From the NCBI GenBank assembly GCA_030622125.1, contig JAUXGM010000071.1, positions 1-11,358 on the forward strand: a DNA stretch of 11,358 nucleotides, written 5' to 3'. This document shows, in pieces, positions 258-11,120 of this stretch (positions within the stretch are counted from its first letter, which is position 1; each line of letters starts with the position of its first letter). A model generated the notes under the pieces. That model saw nothing but the letters and a program-made list of their open reading frames with translations. It ran no database searches and was not told where the DNA came from. Position numbers and translations under genes: made by a program. The stretch comes from a bacterium (GTDB taxonomy: Bacteria > AUK180).

Positions 258-3200
258 ATGAAGAAGTCTGTAATATTATTTTTGGCTTTACTTTTAGTAA
301 TTAGCGGTTTTGCTGCAAAAGAATGGACAATTATCGTATATTTGAACTGTGACAATAATCTTGAGCCTTTTGGAATTACAGATTTTCTGGAAATGTCTTC
401 CGTTGGTTCGGATGCAAATATTAACATCGTTGTTCAAATGGATAGAGCAACCGGATATAGTACTACCTATGGAAATTGGACTACCTGCAAAAGATTTTAT
501 ATAACACAGGGAATGACGCCTGATGCATCAAATGCACTTTCTGATCTCGGTGAGGTGGATATGGGAAGAGCAACAACACTTTCTACCTTTGTCAATTGGG
601 CAATTGATAATTATCCCGCAAATCATTACCTTGTTGATTGCTGGAATCACGGTGACGGTTGGACAAAAGGTGTTGCAATACATGGTGGTATATTTAAGGA
701 CTTTTCCAATGATAATTCATCCGGGAATTCAATATCGGTTGCAAACGGTGAACTTGATAGTGCTCTCTCAACTATAAACAATCATATTCACCAGAAAATT
801 GATCTAATCGGTTTTGATGCCTGTCTTATGAATATGTTTGAGGTAAATGAAGTATGTTCCCCTTATGCAGATTGGTTCGTCGGATCGGAAGAACTCGAAG
901 GGGCGGACGGATGGGTTTACGATTCCTTCCTCGGACCGCTTGCCCAAGCAAACGGGCAAATGACACCACAGGAATTAGGGGATAAGATCGCTTCAACCTA
1001 TGTCGCTTCAAATCAATCAACACAATCTGTAATAAATTTGGCAGAGGCAGCAAATTTCAAGACCAAACTCAATGCCTTTGCTGTTTCTATGATGCAGGCA
1101 CGCGGTGGAGGATACGGTTCAACAATAGAATCATTGATAAACAATACAACCCATTTTTTACAGGGATATTTATATTATTCTCCTGAAAGTGATTACAGGG
1201 ATCTCGGGGATTTTTTAGACAAGGTAATTGCATCATCTCTTCCTCCGTATTCAATTTCAAAAGCACAAGATCTGAAAAATTACTTTACAAATATTGTATA
1301 TTCCAATTATACAAGGGGAACAGGTTATGCAAATTGCGACGGTATTGCAATCTATTTACCGCTGCCTTCCAATTATTCAGCAAATAAAACATTATATACA
1401 AAACTTCCCATTGCCGACGGTGATTGGGATGAATTTATTGAAGGCATTTCAATGACACCTCCCAACCCTACTGTAAATCTTGCATATTATTCAAATATCA
1501 TTGATGACAGTGTGGGAGGGAATAATGACGGTGACCTTGATGGCGGTGAAACGGTGGATCTTGATATTACCCTCATAAATAATGAAGGTAAGAATCTGAC
1601 AGGCGTTAGCGGAATACTTTCAACGATAAATATATACACCACAATAAATACAGATTTGGCAAATTATCCTGATTTTGGTACGAAGGCAAATAATAAAAAA
1701 CAGACCTCTCTAACTCCCTACAACTTTTCGGTTAATAAAACTTGTCCGGCTGGAGAAAATATTGATTTTCAACTGAATCTCACAACAGATCAAGGTGCCA
1801 ATACTGTTTTTTTTACTATTACCGTAGATCAAATGGCTCCAAAGGTTGTAAATCTTATCTATGATAACCATATAATAGATGATTCAATTGGCGGTAATAA
1901 CGATGGGAATGCCGATGCAGCGGAAGATATTAATGTAACGATAACATTAAAAAATACGGAAATTGACGGTGCAACCGGTGTAAGTGCCACCATATCAACA
2001 TCAAATTCATACACAACAATTAATTCAAATAGTTCTACCTACCCCGATATTGCAAGCGGTGCAACCGGTCAGTCGGATACACCGTATCAGATATTTATTT
2101 CAACAAACTGTCCCGCCGGTGAGGTCGTTTTATTTGATATAGATATTACGGCAAATGAAGGAATATGGACGGATACTTTCACCATAACTGTGGATAGACC
2201 CTATGAACCTGTTTTATATAGCGGTTCAGATGTTCTACTTTTCCCTTCATGGTCTCATTCGGGAGATCCGCGGAAGATCGTTTACATTGTAAAGACAGGA
2301 GCGGGAACGGAAATAAGGATAAAGAATTCTGACGGTACGGGAAGCGAAACCGTTGTTGCAGATACTTCAAATAGTGTTTCACATATCTCTCAGATCTGTT
2401 GGTCGCCCGATGATCAGTATATCTTATTTGCGGGAATGGACCCAATAAGAATCCTTATATCCAAAAGTGACGGAAGTTCGATTGGAAATTCTCAATTGAT
2501 GCAGCCGGATTCTTCTGTTCATTACTATAAATTCATTGATCCAAATTGGACGGACAGCTTAAATCAACCGGATGGTAAGGAACGGATTACCGTCTCTGTA
2601 TCGGGCGATATATGGACCTATATTCCTTATGATACTACTTATGATTCCGGACTTCTACGCATTACGGCACTTTCCGATAACGAACTGGATATGACAAAGG
2701 TTGATAAATATTTTCAACCGATATGGAGTCCGGATAATACAAAGATCGCATTTGTCAGAAGACCTGCAACAAGAACAAACAGGGTTGCAAAGACGGATAT
2801 ATATGTTGTTGATGGTGTTCTTGATATTATTTCCGGCACAAATACTTATGTCGGCAGTCTAACAGATCCGAGAATGACTTTGGTTGATGGCGGTGATGCA
2901 CCGAATTATTCACCGAGTTTCTCTATTGACGGAACGATCATTTCTTATGTAAAAGACGTATTGGTTAAATTTAACAACCATACCTTTTATACCGATCCGG
3001 GCGGACAGATCGCAGCGGCGAATTTTGACGGTTACGGTAACGGTTCTGTTTTGGGAAACCCTCCTCTAAATAATATATACAATGAGGGCTTTTTGAAATG
3101 GGCAACAAGCGGCGGCGACAGATTTACTTTTGTTAAAGAGGAGGCGGGTAATTATGAACTTAGGGTTATCTGTGACCCGTCGGTCGGCGGATTTGCGAAA

Positions 3201-3911
3201 GAAGACGGAACCTCAAATTATGTTTTAAAGGATCGGTCAAGAACAACACTTACCATTTCTGAAACTGATAAAGTATCAATCTTAGTCGGTGAAATTTCAG
3301 CACCAATTTCAGTTCCAGCGAGTCATATTATTGGATTACAACCTATTGGCAGTTACAGAAATATTGTGATCAACGGACAAAATGATTACCAATTTATTGC
3401 CCCTGCAAGATTGTTCATATTCTATTCAAAAACCGAGATACCAAAATCTTATAATGAAAATGACATTACACTCTATAGATATGAAGATGGTAATTGGTTA
3501 AAAATTGATTCGAGCATTATTGATGATACGGACGGCAATCCTGAAAACGATATATTTGACGGCGGGTTTGTCGTAGCAGATATAAACAAGGCAGGGCTTT
3601 ACGGTCTTTTTACTACAAGGACTGTGGATGATAATAGGGTAGAAGAAGGTGACTTTATTATGGGACCAAATCCTGCAAATAATTATTTGAATATCTTCGC
3701 TGAAAATCCGGAGAAAATTGATATTTATTCAATCTCGGGAGTCAAGATCGCATCCCTTTCCGAATCGGCAATTGAAAAGGTTCATGGAAATAAATATGTC
3801 TGGAGATTGAAAAATAATAGTGGAAAAAATATCAAATCCGGTATCTATCTTATATATGTAAAATTTTTTAATGGCTCACAAAAATTAAAAAAAGCGGCAA
3901 TAATTCGCTGA
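258..3911 (+). CDS. Secreted clostripain-family (C11) cysteine protease with propeller and T9SS-type sorting domain
   Basis: This 1217-residue multidomain protein opens with a signal peptide (about 1-20: KK, then a long hydrophobic core ending GFAA). Residues 22-395 match peptidase family C11. The probable catalytic dyad is His131 in the NHGDGW motif and Cys189 in the GFDACLM motif, followed by the family-typical GSEE and DGW stretch at 209-219. Clostripain relatives cut after basic residues, but specificity here is not deducible. Residues 405-645 hold two copies of an Asp-rich module. Residues 660-900 contain four PD40/TolB-like propeller strands (PSWSHSGD, CWSPDDQ, IWSPDNTK, SFSIDGT). Residues about 1041-1118 resemble a ZU5-like domain, with LYRYEDGNW in it. 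The last 80 or so residues (GPNPANNYLNI, DIYSISG, KSGIYLIYV) look like a type A T9SS sorting domain, so the protein is probably exported and cleaved or anchored at the surface. The start is supported by a good ribosome binding site. Confidence 0.9.
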   Translation: MKKSVILFLALLLVISGFAAKEWTIIVYLNCDNNLEPFGITDFLEMSSVGSDANINIVVQMDRATGYSTTYGNWTTCKRFYITQGMTPDASNALSDLGEVDMGRATTLSTFVNWAIDNYPANHYLVDCWNHGDGWTKGVAIHGGIFKDFSNDNSSGNSISVANGELDSALSTINNHIHQKIDLIGFDACLMNMFEVNEVCSPYADWFVGSEELEGADGWVYDSFLGPLAQANGQMTPQELGDKIASTYVASNQSTQSVINLAEAANFKTKLNAFAVSMMQARGGGYGSTIESLINNTTHFLQGYLYYSPESDYRDLGDFLDKVIASSLPPYSISKAQDLKNYFTNIVYSNYTRGTGYANCDGIAIYLPLPSNYSANKTLYTKLPIADGDWDEFIEGISMTPPNPTVNLAYYSNIIDDSVGGNNDGDLDGGETVDLDITLINNEGKNLTGVSGILSTINIYTTINTDLANYPDFGTKANNKKQTSLTPYNFSVNKTCPAGENIDFQLNLTTDQGANTVFFTITVDQMAPKVVNLIYDNHIIDDSIGGNNDGNADAAEDINVTITLKNTEIDGATGVSATISTSNSYTTINSNSSTYPDIASGATGQSDTPYQIFISTNCPAGEVVLFDIDITANEGIWTDTFTITVDRPYEPVLYSGSDVLLFPSWSHSGDPRKIVYIVKTGAGTEIRIKNSDGTGSETVVADTSNSVSHISQICWSPDDQYILFAGMDPIRILISKSDGSSIGNSQLMQPDSSVHYYKFIDPNWTDSLNQPDGKERITVSVSGDIWTYIPYDTTYDSGLLRITALSDNELDMTKVDKYFQPIWSPDNTKIAFVRRPATRTNRVAKTDIYVVDGVLDIISGTNTYVGSLTDPRMTLVDGGDAPNYSPSFSIDGTIISYVKDVLVKFNNHTFYTDPGGQIAAANFDGYGNGSVLGNPPLNNIYNEGFLKWATSGGDRFTFVKEEAGNYELRVICDPSVGGFAKEDGTSNYVLKDRSRTTLTISETDKVSILVGEISAPISVPASHIIGLQPIGSYRNIVINGQNDYQFIAPARLFIFYSKTEIPKSYNENDITLYRYEDGNWLKIDSSIIDDTDGNPENDIFDGGFVVADINKAGLYGLFTTRTVDDNRVEEGDFIMGPNPANNYLNIFAENPEKIDIYSISGVKIASLSESAIEKVHGNKYVWRLKNNSGKNIKSGIYLIYVKFFNGSQKLKKAAIIR
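1470..2192 (+). repeat. Tandem duplicated Asp-rich module inside the protease
   Basis: Residues 405-525 and 529-645 of the protease are two copies of one module of about 120 residues. Both begin with VNL and an acidic loop of the pattern IIDDS-[VI]-GGNNDG-x-x-D, continue with TI-x-Y/S-TTIN, then CPAGE, and close with TFTITVD or FFTITVD. The acidic Asn/Asp/Gly loop suggests calcium binding, which is inference. The modules are probably beta-sandwich spacers between the catalytic domain and the propeller. Divergence between copies is substantial, so the duplication is old. Confidence 0.8.
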
Positions 3912-5565: not shown

Positions 5566-6300
5566 ATGGAAAGAGTTTTAATAATCATACCGACCTTAAA
5601 TGAACGGCAAAATTTGGAATTACTATTTGAAAAATTATTTAAAATAACCGTTCAATTTGATATTTTAATAGTTGATGACAATTCTACAGACGGCACAAGA
5701 AAATTTGTTCGAACCAATCCATTATTTCAAAAAAGAATATTCATCATAGAGAGACCTAAAAAATTAGGGCTTGGAACTGCTTACATAACAGGATTTAAAT
5801 GGGGCTTTAAAAAAAAATACGATTATATTATGGAAATGGATGGCGATCTTTCCCATGATCCGAAATATATTTCCGGAATGTTGAATAAACTAAAGATCTA
5901 TGGTTACGATGTTATGATCGGTTCAAGGTATGTATATGGAATAAGTGTGATCAATTGGCCTCTTTCACGGTTAATAATTTCCTATTTTGCAAATTATTAT
6001 GCAAAGTTTGTTCTCGGGTTAAAGATCAAAGATACCACATCGGGTTTTGTTATTTATAAAGCGGCGGCATTGAAAGAACTTCCGTTAAGAAAGGTTTTTT
6101 CCAATGGATATTCCTTTCAGATAGAGATGAAATACCGATTACAGAAACTTAATAAAAGGCTTGGCGAATACCCTATAATTTTTTATGAAAGGAAACGGGG
6201 GAAATCCAAGTTATCAAGAAGGGTTGTTCTTGAAGCAGCGTATATGGTAATATTTCTTAAAATACTTCCCTTATTTTCATTGGTATGGAACAAAAAATAA
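5566..6300 (+). CDS. Polyprenol-phosphate mannosyltransferase-like GT2 glycosyltransferase
   Basis: A 244-residue family 2 glycosyltransferase of the dolichyl/polyprenyl-phosphate mannose synthase (DPM1) type, which moves a sugar from a nucleotide donor to a lipid phosphate on the cytoplasmic face of the membrane. Motifs in order: IIIPTLNE at 6-13, DDNSTDGT at 37-44, the metal-binding DxD in MDGDLSHDP at 91-99, GSRYV at 119-123, NWPLSR at 130-135, DTTSGF at 156-161, and a basic RKRGKSKLSRR tail at 209-219. The length fits the single-domain form without C-terminal membrane anchors. I chose ATG 5566 over the upstream TTG at 5503: homologues start right at the first beta strand, and the extra 21 residues are a hydrophobic, non-conserved stretch. 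No Shine-Dalgarno site is present. Donor sugar and lipid are not known from sequence. The gene overlaps the next one by 16 bases. Confidence 0.9.
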   Translation: MERVLIIIPTLNERQNLELLFEKLFKITVQFDILIVDDNSTDGTRKFVRTNPLFQKRIFIIERPKKLGLGTAYITGFKWGFKKKYDYIMEMDGDLSHDPKYISGMLNKLKIYGYDVMIGSRYVYGISVINWPLSRLIISYFANYYAKFVLGLKIKDTTSGFVIYKAAALKELPLRKVFSNGYSFQIEMKYRLQKLNKRLGEYPIIFYERKRGKSKLSRRVVLEAAYMVIFLKILPLFSLVWNKK

Positions 6301-7208
6301 GAAGGTATTTTCCATTTTTTATTGCAATTTTCGGAGCTGGAAATCTTTTTTATGACATATTTTATTTTTGGAAATTCAAAAAAGGAGAGGTCTGGGATCG
6401 TTACTTTTATGTTTTAAATAAGTGTGCAAAAAAATATGGCATACTATTTGTAAGTAAGATGTTAAATGAAGATCGGTATGAAATGATGAATAAAAAGCGG
6501 TACTTCCTAACTGATGTGATTATTGAAAATGACCCGAGAAGTATTGATTACAACTATTGGGACAGTAATTTAGACAATTATATCTTATCACTCAGGTATG
6601 TAAATGGGAGCTATAGTTCCCTTTATGGACAATATCTTCTTCGCAATTTTTTCCATTTTGAAGATACGAATATTCTAAATAATTTGAAAAAAATAGACAA
6701 AACTTTCCCACAAGTATACAGTGATCTTTCTTTCTACTATTATAAAAAAGGGAATTTGAATACTGCTGAGGACTATTTGGTGTATTCATACCTTCTTGAT
6801 CAGACATCGGAAAGTGTTGCTTTGAACTACGCAAATATACTGATAAAATCAGGTAAATATCAGAAAGCAGGGGCTGTAATAAATAAATGTATCAAGCTGA
6901 ATGGTGAATCATTTAAAGCACTTTATTCAAAAGGTGTCCTTTACCTCGATAAAGCAAAAAATGCAAAAAAAAGATACGGAACCCTTGATGAAGTGGATAT
7001 TAGGATTTCAAGAGAAAATTTTTTAAAGGCAGTAAAATATAATAACATGGATTATAAAAATTTTACCAATTTGGGGCAGACCTGTGCGATATTGGGTAAT
7101 TATGAAGAGGCAAAAAGATTTCTCGGCATTAGTTTGAATATAAATCCTAATAATGAAATAGCCGTTAAGTCGTTAAGAGCTATTGACAAAATGATAAATA
7201 AGAATTAA
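6285..7208 (+). CDS. TPR-repeat protein, probably membrane-anchored
   Basis: A 307-residue protein. An N-terminal hydrophobic segment (about 9-29) follows KIRR and could be a signal anchor, leaving the rest outside the inner membrane; this is inference. Residues about 144-300 show tetratricopeptide repeats: YSDLSFYYYKKGNLNTAEDY, then ANILIKSGKYQKAGAVINKC, then a partial unit around 212-250 interrupted by a Lys-rich insert, then NLGQTCAILGNYEEAKRFL followed by NINPNNEIA. Residues 30-140 are rich in Tyr and Asn and match nothing I recognise. TPRs act as protein-protein scaffolds. The start overlaps the end of the glycosyltransferase gene, implying translational coupling, and the CsgG-like gene follows 19 bases later. 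It may scaffold the envelope module encoded downstream. Confidence 0.8.
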   Translation: MEQKIRRYFPFFIAIFGAGNLFYDIFYFWKFKKGEVWDRYFYVLNKCAKKYGILFVSKMLNEDRYEMMNKKRYFLTDVIIENDPRSIDYNYWDSNLDNYILSLRYVNGSYSSLYGQYLLRNFFHFEDTNILNNLKKIDKTFPQVYSDLSFYYYKKGNLNTAEDYLVYSYLLDQTSESVALNYANILIKSGKYQKAGAVINKCIKLNGESFKALYSKGVLYLDKAKNAKKRYGTLDEVDIRISRENFLKAVKYNNMDYKNFTNLGQTCAILGNYEEAKRFLGISLNINPNNEIAVKSLRAIDKMINKN

Positions 7209-7227: not shown

Positions 7228-8127
7228 ATGAAAAAGCTATTTTTTCTTACTTTTTTACTTGTGGGTATAGTAATGCTGAATGCGGTATCCGGTCCGAAGA
7301 TACGGATAGCAATCGCCGATTTTGAAGACAAGTCAGGCTCCTACGGACATTGGGAAGTTGGAAGAGGCATGTCGGATATGCTTATCACTGCTCTTGTTGA
7401 AAGTGGAAGATTTACTGTTATTGAAAGAGAACAGATGGATAAAATAATCGGTGAGCAAAAATTTTCTCTCACGGGAATGGTAACACAACAAACCTCAGCG
7501 AAATTAGGAAAGATGCTCGGAGTACCTTATCTTATAACAGGCAGCATCACGGAATTTATAAATAAAGCTTCATCCGGTGGAACCGGAATAAAAATTCGTG
7601 GTATTAGGGTAAGTGGGAAAAAATTTTATGGTAAGGTGGGCATTGATGTCAGGATCTATGATGTTTCTACGGGAGAAATTATCGTAGCGAAACATACGGA
7701 AGGAGAGAATAAAGGTGTTGGATTTAATCTCGGAGCTTCTCAAAACGGTATCGATTTTCGGAATTCGAAGATCAAAAAATCTCCGATTGGAAAAGCAGCG
7801 CGTAAGGCGATTGAAGAAGCTGTAAAAGCTATTACAGAAGCATTGTCGGATCGGAAATGGATCGGAAAGATCATCACTGTGAAAGAGGGAATGGTCTATA
7901 TCAATGGCGGTGAGAATTACGGTATAAAAGAGGGTGATACATTTACGGTAGAAAGTGTCGGGGATGAATTGATAGATCCCGATACAGGACTTTCTCTTGG
8001 CTCCGAAACAGAAGAAATTGGAAAGATCAAGGTTGTTCAAGTGAAGGAAAAATACGCTATATGTGAGGTAGTTTCAGGAAAAGGATTCACAAAAGGACAG
8101 CTTATTAAGGTGGAAGATGAAGAATAA
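7228..8127 (+). CDS. CsgG-family envelope protein with FlgT-like C-terminal domain
   Basis: A 299-residue exported protein with a signal peptide (about 1-21) but no cysteine for lipidation. Residues 24-160 match the CsgG/curli-assembly family: KIRIAIADFEDKSG, GRGMSDMLITALVESGRFTVIERE, then KLGKMLGVPYLITGSITEF and a YDVSTGEII strand. CsgG itself is a lipoprotein that forms a nonameric outer-membrane export pore. Two Gly-rich segments (113-140 and 158-186) sit where CsgG has its pore hairpins, but pore formation here is inference. The C-terminal third (about 212-296: GKIITVKEGMVYINGG, YGIKEGDTFTV, GKIKVVQV, KGQLIKV) resembles the FlgT C-terminal fold found on some CsgG/FlgO-type proteins. It shares 11 bases with the next gene. 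Role: envelope assembly or stress sensing, substrate unknown. Confidence 0.87.
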   Translation: MKKLFFLTFLLVGIVMLNAVSGPKIRIAIADFEDKSGSYGHWEVGRGMSDMLITALVESGRFTVIEREQMDKIIGEQKFSLTGMVTQQTSAKLGKMLGVPYLITGSITEFINKASSGGTGIKIRGIRVSGKKFYGKVGIDVRIYDVSTGEIIVAKHTEGENKGVGFNLGASQNGIDFRNSKIKKSPIGKAARKAIEEAVKAITEALSDRKWIGKIITVKEGMVYINGGENYGIKEGDTFTVESVGDELIDPDTGLSLGSETEEIGKIKVVQVKEKYAICEVVSGKGFTKGQLIKVEDEE

Positions 8128-8578
8128 AAGACTTTTTATTCTTGCAATTTTAATATTCTTTTTTTCAGTCTCTTGTAAAAATAATAATGCTGCACAAAAT
8201 GTTGATCAGGGTCAGAATCTAAAAACAGAGAAGGTCAAATTTTTGCCACAAGAAATTGTAAGATACGCTAATTTGGAATTAGATATATTAAATCATACAA
8301 AAAATCTTTCAAAGACAATAGAAAATTTTAAAAGAGGGGATCATTATTTTGTTTTCGGACAATCCTCAAATGTTGGAGGAATTCCCGAAAAAAAACGGGC
8401 AGCGGAAATTGATGCCAAAAGATGGGGTGCAATTTTTATGAAATATCTTTTAACAGGGGAAGAAAACCTTGATATGAAAGGACAGTATGTTAATTTCTTA
8501 GAGTTTGAAGGTGAGTTTAATGATAATCGAACAGGAAAAGTTTACAGAATATATAAATTTAAAGAGAGGGAAAAATGA
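8117..8578 (+). CDS. Small lipoprotein, possibly LPP20/FlgP-like
   Basis: A 153-residue protein with a lipoprotein signal peptide: a basic KNKR start, a hydrophobic core and the lipobox SVSC with Cys20 as the lipidated residue. Lys at +2 gives no Asp inner-membrane retention signal, so outer-membrane sorting is plausible. A low-complexity Asn/Gln linker follows (21-40). The most conserved-looking part is 75-112, with GQSSNVGGIPEKKRAAEIDA then KRWGA. That pattern faintly recalls LPP20-type lipoproteins, in which Ala/Lys-rich helix starts follow a short glycine strand, but I cannot confirm the family. The start lies inside the end of the CsgG-like gene with a GGTGGAAG-type purine stretch before it, and the stop overlaps the next ATG (ATGA). 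This position makes it a likely partner of the CsgG-like protein. Confidence 0.75.
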   Translation: MKNKRLFILAILIFFFSVSCKNNNAAQNVDQGQNLKTEKVKFLPQEIVRYANLELDILNHTKNLSKTIENFKRGDHYFVFGQSSNVGGIPEKKRAAEIDAKRWGAIFMKYLLTGEENLDMKGQYVNFLEFEGEFNDNRTGKVYRIYKFKEREK

Positions 8579-9330
8579 AGAGAAATTGGTTATTCTTAGT
8601 TTTTTTTATTCTCGTTTGTTTGTTTTTTGTCGGTTCGGAAAAAAAAGAACAGACAGACGGTATTATGACTTATTTGGAAGGAAATGCACAAAAAACGGAG
8701 TTAAAGTCCCATAATTGGAAATTTGTAAAAGAAAATGATGCGGTAAGTGGCGGGGAAAAAGTTAAGACATTGGATAAGTCTCGTGCCGAATTGGAACTTG
8801 ATATTGGAAAGGTTATAAGAATGGCACCGCTTACCGAAGTAAATATTCTGAAACTTTATAAAGAAATTACGGAGAAAGGCAAAAAAAGTGATATGAAGTT
8901 AAGCATTAAACAAGGAGCAATATACAGTAAGATAGATGCACTTGGTGAAGATGAAACATTAGAAATTGAAACTCCCCTTGCCTCGGCAACAATAAGAGGA
9001 ACAATCTTTCAGATAAACTGTGAAAAAGACGATAAGGTACAACTTGATGTTATAAAAGGAAAAGTTTGGGTTTATTCAAATGAAGTAAAAGACCCGAAAG
9101 CATTCTATGAGAAAAACAAATCTCCACACCGAATCGGGAAACCGTTTAAACGGATAAAGAAACCATATAAACAGGTTTCAAAAGGGGAATGGCTTGAGAT
9201 AGTTAAAAGCATGCAGCGAATAACGATCACCAGGGATGGAAAAACAGAGGTAACCGATCTTAATAAAGAGGATATAAATACAAAGTGGATTGAATGGAAT
9301 AAAAAATTGGACAGTAAGGGTTTAAAATAG
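8575..9330 (+). CDS. FecR-domain periplasmic protein
   Basis: A 251-residue protein. An N-terminal hydrophobic segment (about 5-20) acts as signal peptide or anchor. Residues 28-170 form a FecR domain: GIMTYLEGNAQ, WKFVKENDAVSGGEKVKT, SRAELEL, GKVIRMAP, KQGAIYSKI, the hallmark TPLASATIRGTIFQI at 133-147, and VIKGKVWVYS at 159-168. In this family the domain is a beta-rich module found in envelope sensors and, without the TonB-sensor parts, in many secreted proteins; no sigma factor gene is adjacent. A strongly basic Lys/Pro/Arg stretch (about 171-203) separates it from a last strand region (VSKGEWLEIV and onward). It starts in an ATGA overlap with the lipoprotein gene, with GAGAGGG upstream as ribosome binding site, so the two are coupled. 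Confidence 0.85.
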   Translation: MKRNWLFLVFFILVCLFFVGSEKKEQTDGIMTYLEGNAQKTELKSHNWKFVKENDAVSGGEKVKTLDKSRAELELDIGKVIRMAPLTEVNILKLYKEITEKGKKSDMKLSIKQGAIYSKIDALGEDETLEIETPLASATIRGTIFQINCEKDDKVQLDVIKGKVWVYSNEVKDPKAFYEKNKSPHRIGKPFKRIKKPYKQVSKGEWLEIVKSMQRITITRDGKTEVTDLNKEDINTKWIEWNKKLDSKGLK

Positions 9331-9334
9331 GGAT

Positions 9335-10540
9335 ATGGCAATAATCTTAAATATTCTTCTATTTATTTGTATAAATGGTATTATTTTTTCTAATTTTTTC
9401 TCAAAAGTGCTTATTTATCTTTCTACCAAAAAAGAAATTCCAGACGGAAAAAGATTTAAAACTCTTATTGGAATTGAAACATTTCTTGTTATTCTCTATC
9501 TATTTTTAGCATTTTTGCTTATAACTCTTTTTAAGAACGGATTTATAAATAAATGGTGGGAAATCATCATTATTGTTCTATTCACCCTTTATTTTGCTCT
9601 GGCAAATGTATTTACAAATAAATTTTCTCATAATATTACTGAAAAGCAAATTAATAATATTTTCGGGTTGGGATTGATCTTATTTTATGTACCATTTTTT
9701 TTACCCGTAACATTTTTAATATTTATCCTTTTACAAAAGCAAAAAAAAGAAATTATTTCAAAAAACTTTCCTATCTATCTTACGGAAAATCAATTAAGAA
9801 CAATTATTGAAAAAGACTCGGAATTAGAAAAAGATGAAAAGGATATGTTGACATCAATAATTGGATTTGCCAATATTAAGGCAAGTGAGATAATGATTCC
9901 ACGAACCTCAGTTGTATCCATTGGGAAAGATGCGGAATTTGGCAATATTCTTTCTCTATTTAAAGAAAAGGGTATTTCCCGTTTACCTGTTTATAAAGAA
10001 AATCTTGATAACATTGTAGGAATACTTTATTTAAAGGATCTCATCGGTATCTCAAAAGAGGATTTTATATTATCAAAATTTGTCAGAAAGCCCATTTTTA
10101 TGCCTGAAACCGTAAAACTTGATGAACTCTTAAAGGTAATGATCGAAAAAAAGATGCAAATGATAATAATATTGGACGAGTACGGTGGAACATCCGGAAT
10201 ATTAACAATGGAAGACATTATAGAAGAGGTGGTCGGTGAAATTGAGGATGAATACGATACACATAGAAAAGATATTGAAAAGGTCGATAAAAATACATAT
10301 AAGGTAAAGGCATCCGTTGAGATTGAAGATATCAATGAAAAGCTTGGGATCAATATCCCCAAACAAGATGTTGAAACAGTTGGTGGGTTCGTACTTACAT
10401 TGGTGGAAAGGATACCGAAAAAAGGAGAGACCTTTAAATACAATAATTTACATTTTAGAATCCTTGATGCAGATGACAGAAAAATCAACTGGTTGCTTCT
10501 AAGTATTAAACAAAAGGTGAAAAATGAAAAAACTGAATAG
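9335..10540 (+). CDS. CorC/HlyC-type CBS-domain membrane protein (CNNM-like), divergent membrane part
   Basis: A 401-residue protein. The N-terminal half has about four hydrophobic segments (4-29, 45-67, 75-94, 108-134). Residues 180-305 hold the paired CBS domains with hallmark motifs SEIMIPRTSVVSI at 184-196, GISRLPVY, VGILYLKDL, and DEYGGTSGILTMEDIIEEVV at 281-300, followed by GEIEDEYD. Residues 318-395 match the CorC_HlyC C-terminal domain (VETVGGFVL, IPKKGETFKY). Relatives are linked to magnesium or cobalt efflux and resistance, and CBS pairs bind adenine nucleotides. The membrane part shows no clear DUF21 sequence pattern, so transport function is less certain than the family name suggests. 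It begins four bases after the FecR gene's stop, with only a weak ribosome binding site, and overlaps the next gene by 17 bases. Confidence 0.9.
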   Translation: MAIILNILLFICINGIIFSNFFSKVLIYLSTKKEIPDGKRFKTLIGIETFLVILYLFLAFLLITLFKNGFINKWWEIIIIVLFTLYFALANVFTNKFSHNITEKQINNIFGLGLILFYVPFFLPVTFLIFILLQKQKKEIISKNFPIYLTENQLRTIIEKDSELEKDEKDMLTSIIGFANIKASEIMIPRTSVVSIGKDAEFGNILSLFKEKGISRLPVYKENLDNIVGILYLKDLIGISKEDFILSKFVRKPIFMPETVKLDELLKVMIEKKMQMIIILDEYGGTSGILTMEDIIEEVVGEIEDEYDTHRKDIEKVDKNTYKVKASVEIEDINEKLGINIPKQDVETVGGFVLTLVERIPKKGETFKYNNLHFRILDADDRKINWLLLSIKQKVKNEKTE

Positions 10541-11120
10541 TATATTTCTTGCAGGACTTTTTGTAATTATTCCGATTGCCATCACGTTTTATATCCTTTA
10601 TATTGTAGTGCGATTCGGTGACAACATAACAGCACCTCTCCTACAATATTTACATACGGCTTATAATTTCCCCATGATTCCCGGAACGGGTTTGATCCTT
10701 ATAATTATCTTGATCTTTGTTGTCGGCATTATTGCAAGAAATTTAATCGGTAAACACATAATAAAATTACTCGATCTTCTATTTCATACCGTACCGATCA
10801 TAAATAGAATTTACGGTAGCATAAAAGAAATATCAAACTCTTTTTTAGGCACAAAGGAAGGAAAGGTATTTAAGAAAGTAGCATTAGTTGATTATCCGCA
10901 TAAAGGTGTAAAGGCACTCGGTTTTATAACAAATGAAACAACGCTTCTTGATACAAAGGATGAGGATTATGTTTCAATATTTCTTCCAACAACACCTAAT
11001 CCGACATCAGGATTTTTTTTACTTTATAAGAAAAAGGATGTAACTATTCTTGATATGTCAATAGAAAATGCTCTTAAAATGATAATCTCCTCCGGTGCTG
11101 TTGAAAAAATGAAAAAATAA
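10524..11120 (+). CDS. DUF502 family membrane protein
   Basis: A 198-residue protein with two strong transmembrane segments (about 8-29 and 55-72). Family hallmarks are IPGTGL at 52-57, the HTVPIINRIYGSIKE stretch at 88-102, GFITNE at 133-138 and FLPTTPNPTSGF at 153-164. DUF502 proteins are widespread in bacteria and plants (the plant COV/LCV proteins belong here), and their biochemical role in bacteria is not established. The length is normal, so the gene is complete. AAGGTGA lies four bases before the ATG as ribosome binding site, and the start is inside the CorC-like gene, giving translational coupling. It is the last gene of the run. Confidence 0.92.
   Translation: MKKLNSIFLAGLFVIIPIAITFYILYIVVRFGDNITAPLLQYLHTAYNFPMIPGTGLILIIILIFVVGIIARNLIGKHIIKLLDLLFHTVPIINRIYGSIKEISNSFLGTKEGKVFKKVALVDYPHKGVKALGFITNETTLLDTKDEDYVSIFLPTTPNPTSGFFLLYKKKDVTILDMSIENALKMIISSGAVEKMKK

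Follow-up and report, generated by a model that had tools for sequence, protein, structure and literature searches.

A CsgG/FlgT-type protein, a small lipoprotein and a FecR-domain protein as a candidate outer-membrane complex in bacteria without detected flagella or curli

Organization of the locus

Three overlapping genes lie on the forward strand of the window (i.e., the whole 11,358-nucleotide stretch of DNA analyzed here), at positions 7228-8127, 8117-8578 and 8575-9330 (all +), and encode a 299 aa CsgG protein (csgG-flgT), a 153 aa lipoprotein and a 251 aa FecR protein (fecR1). The first two genes have the 11 bases 8117-8127 in common, and the last two an ATGA at 8575-8578, both overlaps being read directly from the sequence, as the original prediction had described them. 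The identities it had proposed were also borne out: Pfam recovered a CsgG protein with a FlgT-like C-terminus and a FecR protein (PF03783, PF16538 and PF04773 all match), and the lipobox-type cysteine of the small lipoprotein (Cys20) is invariant in five homologues. The operon neighbors on the same strand encode a CorC/GldE-like CBS-domain membrane protein (9335-10540, Pfam CBS and CorC_HlyC) and a DUF502 membrane protein (10524-11120, Pfam 6e-33).

A CsgG protein with a FlgT-type fold

The csgG-flgT product (7228-8127, +) carries a Sec signal followed by a CsgG family match (PF03783, E 3.5e-43) and a C-terminal FlgT domain (PF16538, 30.9 bits vs. a cut-off of 27; residues 223-285, 7894-8082, +), while FlgT_M matched under its cut-off and weaker matches to LpoB and TolB_N were also recovered. 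In profile searches, CsgG from the PDB matched this protein at E 3e-17, and TsaP chains matched its FlgT_C-type domain (3jc8, E 2.9e-8; 6ve2, E 7.7e-8). Against NCBIfam, the match to HfaB was weak, and the protein fell under the CsgG/HfaB naming cut-offs. No lipobox was found in the CsgG protein, whose signal region includes no cysteine, and 4 of its 51 relatives have one. Judged by its signal region, it is thus an ordinary secreted protein, not a lipidated one.

The AlphaFold2 (AF2) monomer model of this protein (pLDDT 84.7) has the flagellar protein FlgT as its top structural match in the PDB (8z5n, Z 19.1, 249 residues, rmsd 4.6; 3w1e, Z 16.5), and the matched portion of FlgT comprises its middle and C-terminal domains. 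PelC and CsgG rank after FlgT (Z 14.2-14.4), with CsgG itself at Z 14.3 over 177 residues (rmsd 4.6), and Foldseek ordered the two in the same way (FlgT E 3e-16, CsgG E 1e-10).

Two regions correspond to the membrane hairpins of CsgG. The first (TM1; residues ~112-137, 7561-7638, +) aligns without gaps to E. coli CsgG (SGGTG vs. SGGVG), its glycine-rich pattern is kept in relatives, and all but one of the 51 relatives (50 of 51) carry an aromatic residue in the loop that matches the CsgG constriction. The second (residues ~158-182, 7699-7773, +) was placed tentatively, from alignment position and length. Since hydrophobic residues showed no significant alternation in the hairpins, the second hairpin was modelled with low confidence (pLDDT ~50-74), and the best match, FlgT, is a ring protein that forms no pore, a membrane pore is only putative here.

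A small lipoprotein with a likely LPP20/FlgT_N-type fold

Sequence comparisons of the lipoprotein (8117-8578, +) returned little: no significant Pfam family, LPP20 included; PDB matches at E 0.11 or worse; no convincing match in profile comparisons with LPP20, FlgT, SLH, FecR and CsgG sets, the LPP20 proteins of the wider cluster described below included; and, among the other 381 genomes of a broad sample, weak partial matches (E 4e-4 or worse) with no convincing relative. The AF2 model is confident from residue ~41 onward, with an ordered domain at pLDDT ~92 (residues 43-153, 8243-8575, +) that lies C-terminal to a disordered linker. The eight highest-ranking fold matches of this model are all Lpp20, Tip-alpha, HP1454 or FlgT N-domain structures (Z 7.4 to 5.3), with dodecins coming after rank 8; H. 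pylori Lpp20 is the best of them, at a moderate Z of 7.4 (i.e., under 8), and the FlgT N-domain scores 5.3-5.4. Because these Z-scores are moderate, we consider the modelled LPP20/FlgT_N-type fold likely rather than firm.

FlgP, FlgT and Lpp20 (HP1456) are reported to have very similar structures, with FlgP and FlgT assembling into disks (PMC11756786). The likeness of the trio to FlgO/FlgP/FlgT of Vibrio, first noted from the letters alone, reappears in the structural matches of both models, with FlgT best for the CsgG protein (Z 19.1), and Lpp20 best (Z 7.4) with the FlgT N-domain at 5.3-5.4 for the lipoprotein.

A FecR protein with a conserved C-terminal tail

The exported product of fecR1 (8575-9330, +) has a FecR domain at residues 62-164 (8758-9066, +; PF04773, E 8.2e-12), and nothing useful was obtained for it from a PDB sequence search (best match 3tuf SpoIIQ, E 0.016). 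C-terminal to this domain lies a tail of the form KPY..VS...W..IVK.MQRI.I..DGK...W..WN..LD (9163-9312, +), which is common to FecR proteins inside the family and in other phyla, and in which P197, V201, W206, N242 and D246 are invariant over 23 sequences. This tail marks the FecR proteins of these phyla as one family, and suggests a candidate docking segment. A tree of FecR sequences is not used as evidence here, as long branches came together in it and one of its rows had been read from the wrong strand.

An LPP20-like protein at another locus (L150, 8026-8448) has a C-terminus resembling the FecR tail, which suggests a shared docking segment. At loci L193, L199, L201 and L202, tail-bearing FecR genes sit beside LPP20/SLH genes or occur as two copies a few kb apart, with csgG not detected nearby. 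Among NCBIfam models, the FecR protein from the window scores best against Lsa33 and LipL45, two surface proteins of Leptospira, though well under cut-off.

Conservation within the family and flanking genes

The order csgG - lipoprotein - fecR - CBS gene is kept in all five family genomes (four genera), and the gene ends within the trio overlap or lie ≤6 bases apart; given this conserved order and close abutment, the arrangement is not a matter of chance. The original prediction looked for a trio conserved across distant genomes, which held in part: the linkage of CsgG with FecR extends across distant phyla, whereas the exact trio is limited to one family, because the lipoprotein sequence family was found nowhere else in a 386-genome sample.

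The DUF502 gene comes next in four of the five family genomes, and the fifth contig stops before the corresponding position. Both the CorC/GldE-like and DUF502 genes were considered as members of the module and rejected, as they follow the trio in this family only. On the other side, the upstream TPR protein had been proposed as a possible member, and this was not upheld in the two family genomes with sufficient upstream sequence (the contigs of G001 and G004 end too early): in G003 the homologue makes up the C-terminal portion of a TMEM260-like/TPR protein, and G002 has a pilin gene upstream. The upstream TPR gene is thus not a conserved partner. The TPR protein of the window itself (6285-7208) corresponds to the C-terminal part of the G003 protein at the same place, and seems to lack the transferase part.

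A wider cluster across phyla

Scanning GTDB genomes with an alignment of the CsgG protein yielded 80 loci, many of them from KSB1, Calditrichota, Zixibacteria, Edwardsbacteria and Omnitrophota. A recurring gene order (LPP20-like, TPR/SLH lipoprotein, FlgT-like, CsgG-FlgT_C, FecR) was seen in relatives from KSB1, Calditrichota, Zixibacteria and Edwardsbacteria, and is followed in many cases, KSB1-type loci among them, by genes for an AI-2E-type permease, a DUF512 radical-SAM protein and the Der GTPase. Among loci with enough upstream sequence, LPP20 was found upstream of csgG in 31 of 48, a FlgT-like gene in 28 of 48 and SLH in 26 of 48, and FecR lay downstream in 24 of the 59 loci with downstream sequence. 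For the 38 loci with both flanks available, LPP20, SLH, FlgT and FecR were all in place in 14, and FecR with at least two of the other three in 17. All these neighborhood counts are lower bounds, as the simple ORF caller used leaves some genes masked by antisense frames where loci are GC-rich. Component matches were concentrated around csgG (142 of 389 ORFs within 3.5 kb vs. 4 of 224 ORFs further off), and many CsgG homologues sit outside any such cluster.

Of the 386 genomes in an independent sample, 89 encode the CsgG protein at E ≤ 1e-30, and 11 have a tail-bearing FecR on the same strand at ~1 kb or nearer to csgG, six of these outside the family (adjacencies read by hand from coordinates and checked in part). 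The genomes compared are mostly metagenome-assembled. No description of this cluster was found in the literature searched for CsgG together with LPP20/FlgT/FecR, TolB/LpoB or SLH.

The genome that includes the window also holds a second locus (G000:C114; L085, 3816-10448), with genes for an LPP20-like protein, a TPR/SLH lipoprotein, a FlgT-like protein, a FecR paralogue and a protein of 902 aa that matches no Pfam family and is possibly AsmA-like. This second locus was found again in four family relatives. Between them, the two loci hold the components by which the cluster is defined, i.e., CsgG with FlgT_C next to a tail-bearing FecR, and LPP20, SLH/TPR and FlgT-like genes in the same genome. 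Most simply read, the cluster of the other genomes is spread over two loci in this one, each with a FecR copy.

A setting apart from flagella, curli and sigma factors

No flagellar, curli or sigma-factor genes were found in the window, and no ECF sigma factor gene occurs either among its genes or among those scanned around the second FecR. A wider search of the five family genomes (91-96% completeness) recovered no match to FliF or Flagellin_N (controls positive), and none of the five matched Curlin_rpt (PF07012) or CsgF (PF10614), with a positive E. coli control. The original prediction had noted the absence of flagellar, curli subunit and sigma genes from the window and suggested a separate complex; a setting independent of flagella and curli is supported, as the lack of detected flagellar and curli core genes extends to the five family genomes. 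Among 17 other cluster-bearing genomes (completeness not given), FliF is present in eight and absent from nine. As FliF is undetected in the family and missing from these nine genomes, the module does not depend on flagella.

Relation to known systems and proposed function

The module puts together, in another arrangement, parts known from two machines, the curli channel and the flagellar H-ring. With the H-ring of sodium-driven Vibrio flagella (FlgO/FlgP/FlgT), it has in common the FlgT middle and C-terminal fold modelled for its CsgG protein and the LPP20/FlgT_N-type fold predicted as likely for its lipoprotein, along with LPP20 and FlgT_N-like proteins in the wider cluster. In contrast to the H-ring, it occurs in a family without FliF or flagellin matches, spreads FlgT-type domains over separate genes, adds FecR and SLH/TPR proteins, and keeps the CsgG hairpin region. 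With curli CsgG and the holdfast protein HfaB it shares the CsgG family, the sequence of the first hairpin, the loop aromatics and the weak HfaB match, but its CsgG protein differs from that of E. coli in having no lipid anchor and an extra FlgT_C domain, and neither curlin nor CsgF was found in the family genomes. The small protein is probably similar to LPP20/FlgP disk lipoproteins (H. pylori Lpp20, Tip-alpha) in its predicted fold and predicted lipid anchor, although it has no Pfam LPP20 match and its sequence is restricted to the family. TsaP, a ring protein of the type IV pilus secretin, likewise has a FlgT_C-type domain, whereas the module protein has no LysM match (Pfam) and has a CsgG core. 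Finally, Lsa33 and LipL45 of Leptospira share an exported FecR domain and are the best NCBIfam matches, but with scores well under the cut-offs and nothing matching the C-terminal tail.

Our preferred reading, to which we assign a probability of roughly 0.45, is that the trio forms part of a CsgG/FlgT-type outer-membrane ring complex, in which the lipoprotein would form a disk and FecR would be a partner in the periplasm, put to a use other than flagella or curli. For this complex we infer oligomerization, membrane insertion, contacts between the proteins, any substrate and function, and the structure models are those of monomers. All three proteins would be exported, and the non-lipidated CsgG-FlgT protein would oligomerize into a ring, with its FlgT_C domains forming a periplasmic collar and its CsgG hairpins perhaps inserted as a barrel in the outer membrane. 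The lipoprotein, attached to the outer membrane through its lipid and a flexible linker, could pack around or under this ring, on the model of FlgP and FlgT in flagellar disks, while the FecR protein would dock from the periplasm via its conserved tail. Elsewhere, the ring probably also contains the LPP20 and FlgT-like proteins and the SLH/TPR lipoprotein encoded in the cluster, and it may be attached to the cell wall through the SLH domain.

One alternative, which we regard as unlikely, is a true export channel, i.e., a nonameric pore like curli CsgG that secretes a surface polymer or fiber, with the lipoprotein and FecR as CsgE/CsgF-like accessories. The TM1 region and loop aromatics do resemble CsgG, and a larger CsgG family beyond curli was already suspected in 2012 (PMC3521004), but the five family genomes have no curlin repeats or CsgF, no substrate gene is conserved beside CsgG, the protein is not a lipoprotein, and its best whole-chain match is FlgT rather than CsgG. 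Equally improbable in our view is a purely structural role as a collar or brace that forms no pore, in which a FlgT/TsaP-like ring stabilizes another outer-membrane machine or links the outer membrane to peptidoglycan. Such a role would fit the FlgT_C domain common to TsaP and FlgT, FlgT as best structural match, the SLH/TPR lipoprotein in the cluster and the LpoB/TolB-like core of the CsgG protein; against it, the first CsgG hairpin region is kept at full length, no conserved partner machine adjoins the cluster, and FliF is absent from the family and present in only 8 of the 17 other cluster-bearing genomes. The FecR domain takes its name from an anti-sigma factor, but that the FecR protein is an anti-sigma-type regulator, its neighbors being unrelated envelope genes sharing an operon by accident, is very improbable: the window has no sigma factor gene, linkage of fecR with csgG/LPP20/FlgT-type genes recurs in different phyla, and the common tail lies outside the FecR domain.

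CsgG is known from curli export and FlgT from the flagellar H-ring, which are unrelated machines, and one protein of the module carries the fold of both, in a multi-phylum cluster that also occurs where flagella and curli are undetectable. Since this cluster is found across phyla, including bacteria without detected flagella or curli, it probably builds an undescribed outer-membrane structure in these little-studied groups. Returning to the ring complex, one may speculate further, though doubtfully, that channel of CsgG type and ring of FlgT/FlgP type form a single structure, a so far undescribed machine of the outer membrane that is widespread in, and not confined to, the KSB1/Calditrichota/Zixibacteria group; the flagellar H-ring and the curli channel would then be specialized relatives of an envelope complex able to function in the absence of both. 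The module itself, if real, connects two outer-membrane machines in a way that can be tested, and offers a first approach to the function of a conserved cluster not described in the literature searched.

Other genes of the window

The CBS/CorC protein (9335-10540) has no match to the Pfam CNNM domain in its membrane part, and its best NCBIfam score is to GldE (gliding motility; 3e-61, under cut-off). At the other end of the window, positions 258-3911 encode a 1217-aa clostripain-type (C11) protease with a PD40 repeat, the C-terminus of which resembles a type IX secretion sorting domain (21.5 bits, under the cut-off of 27).
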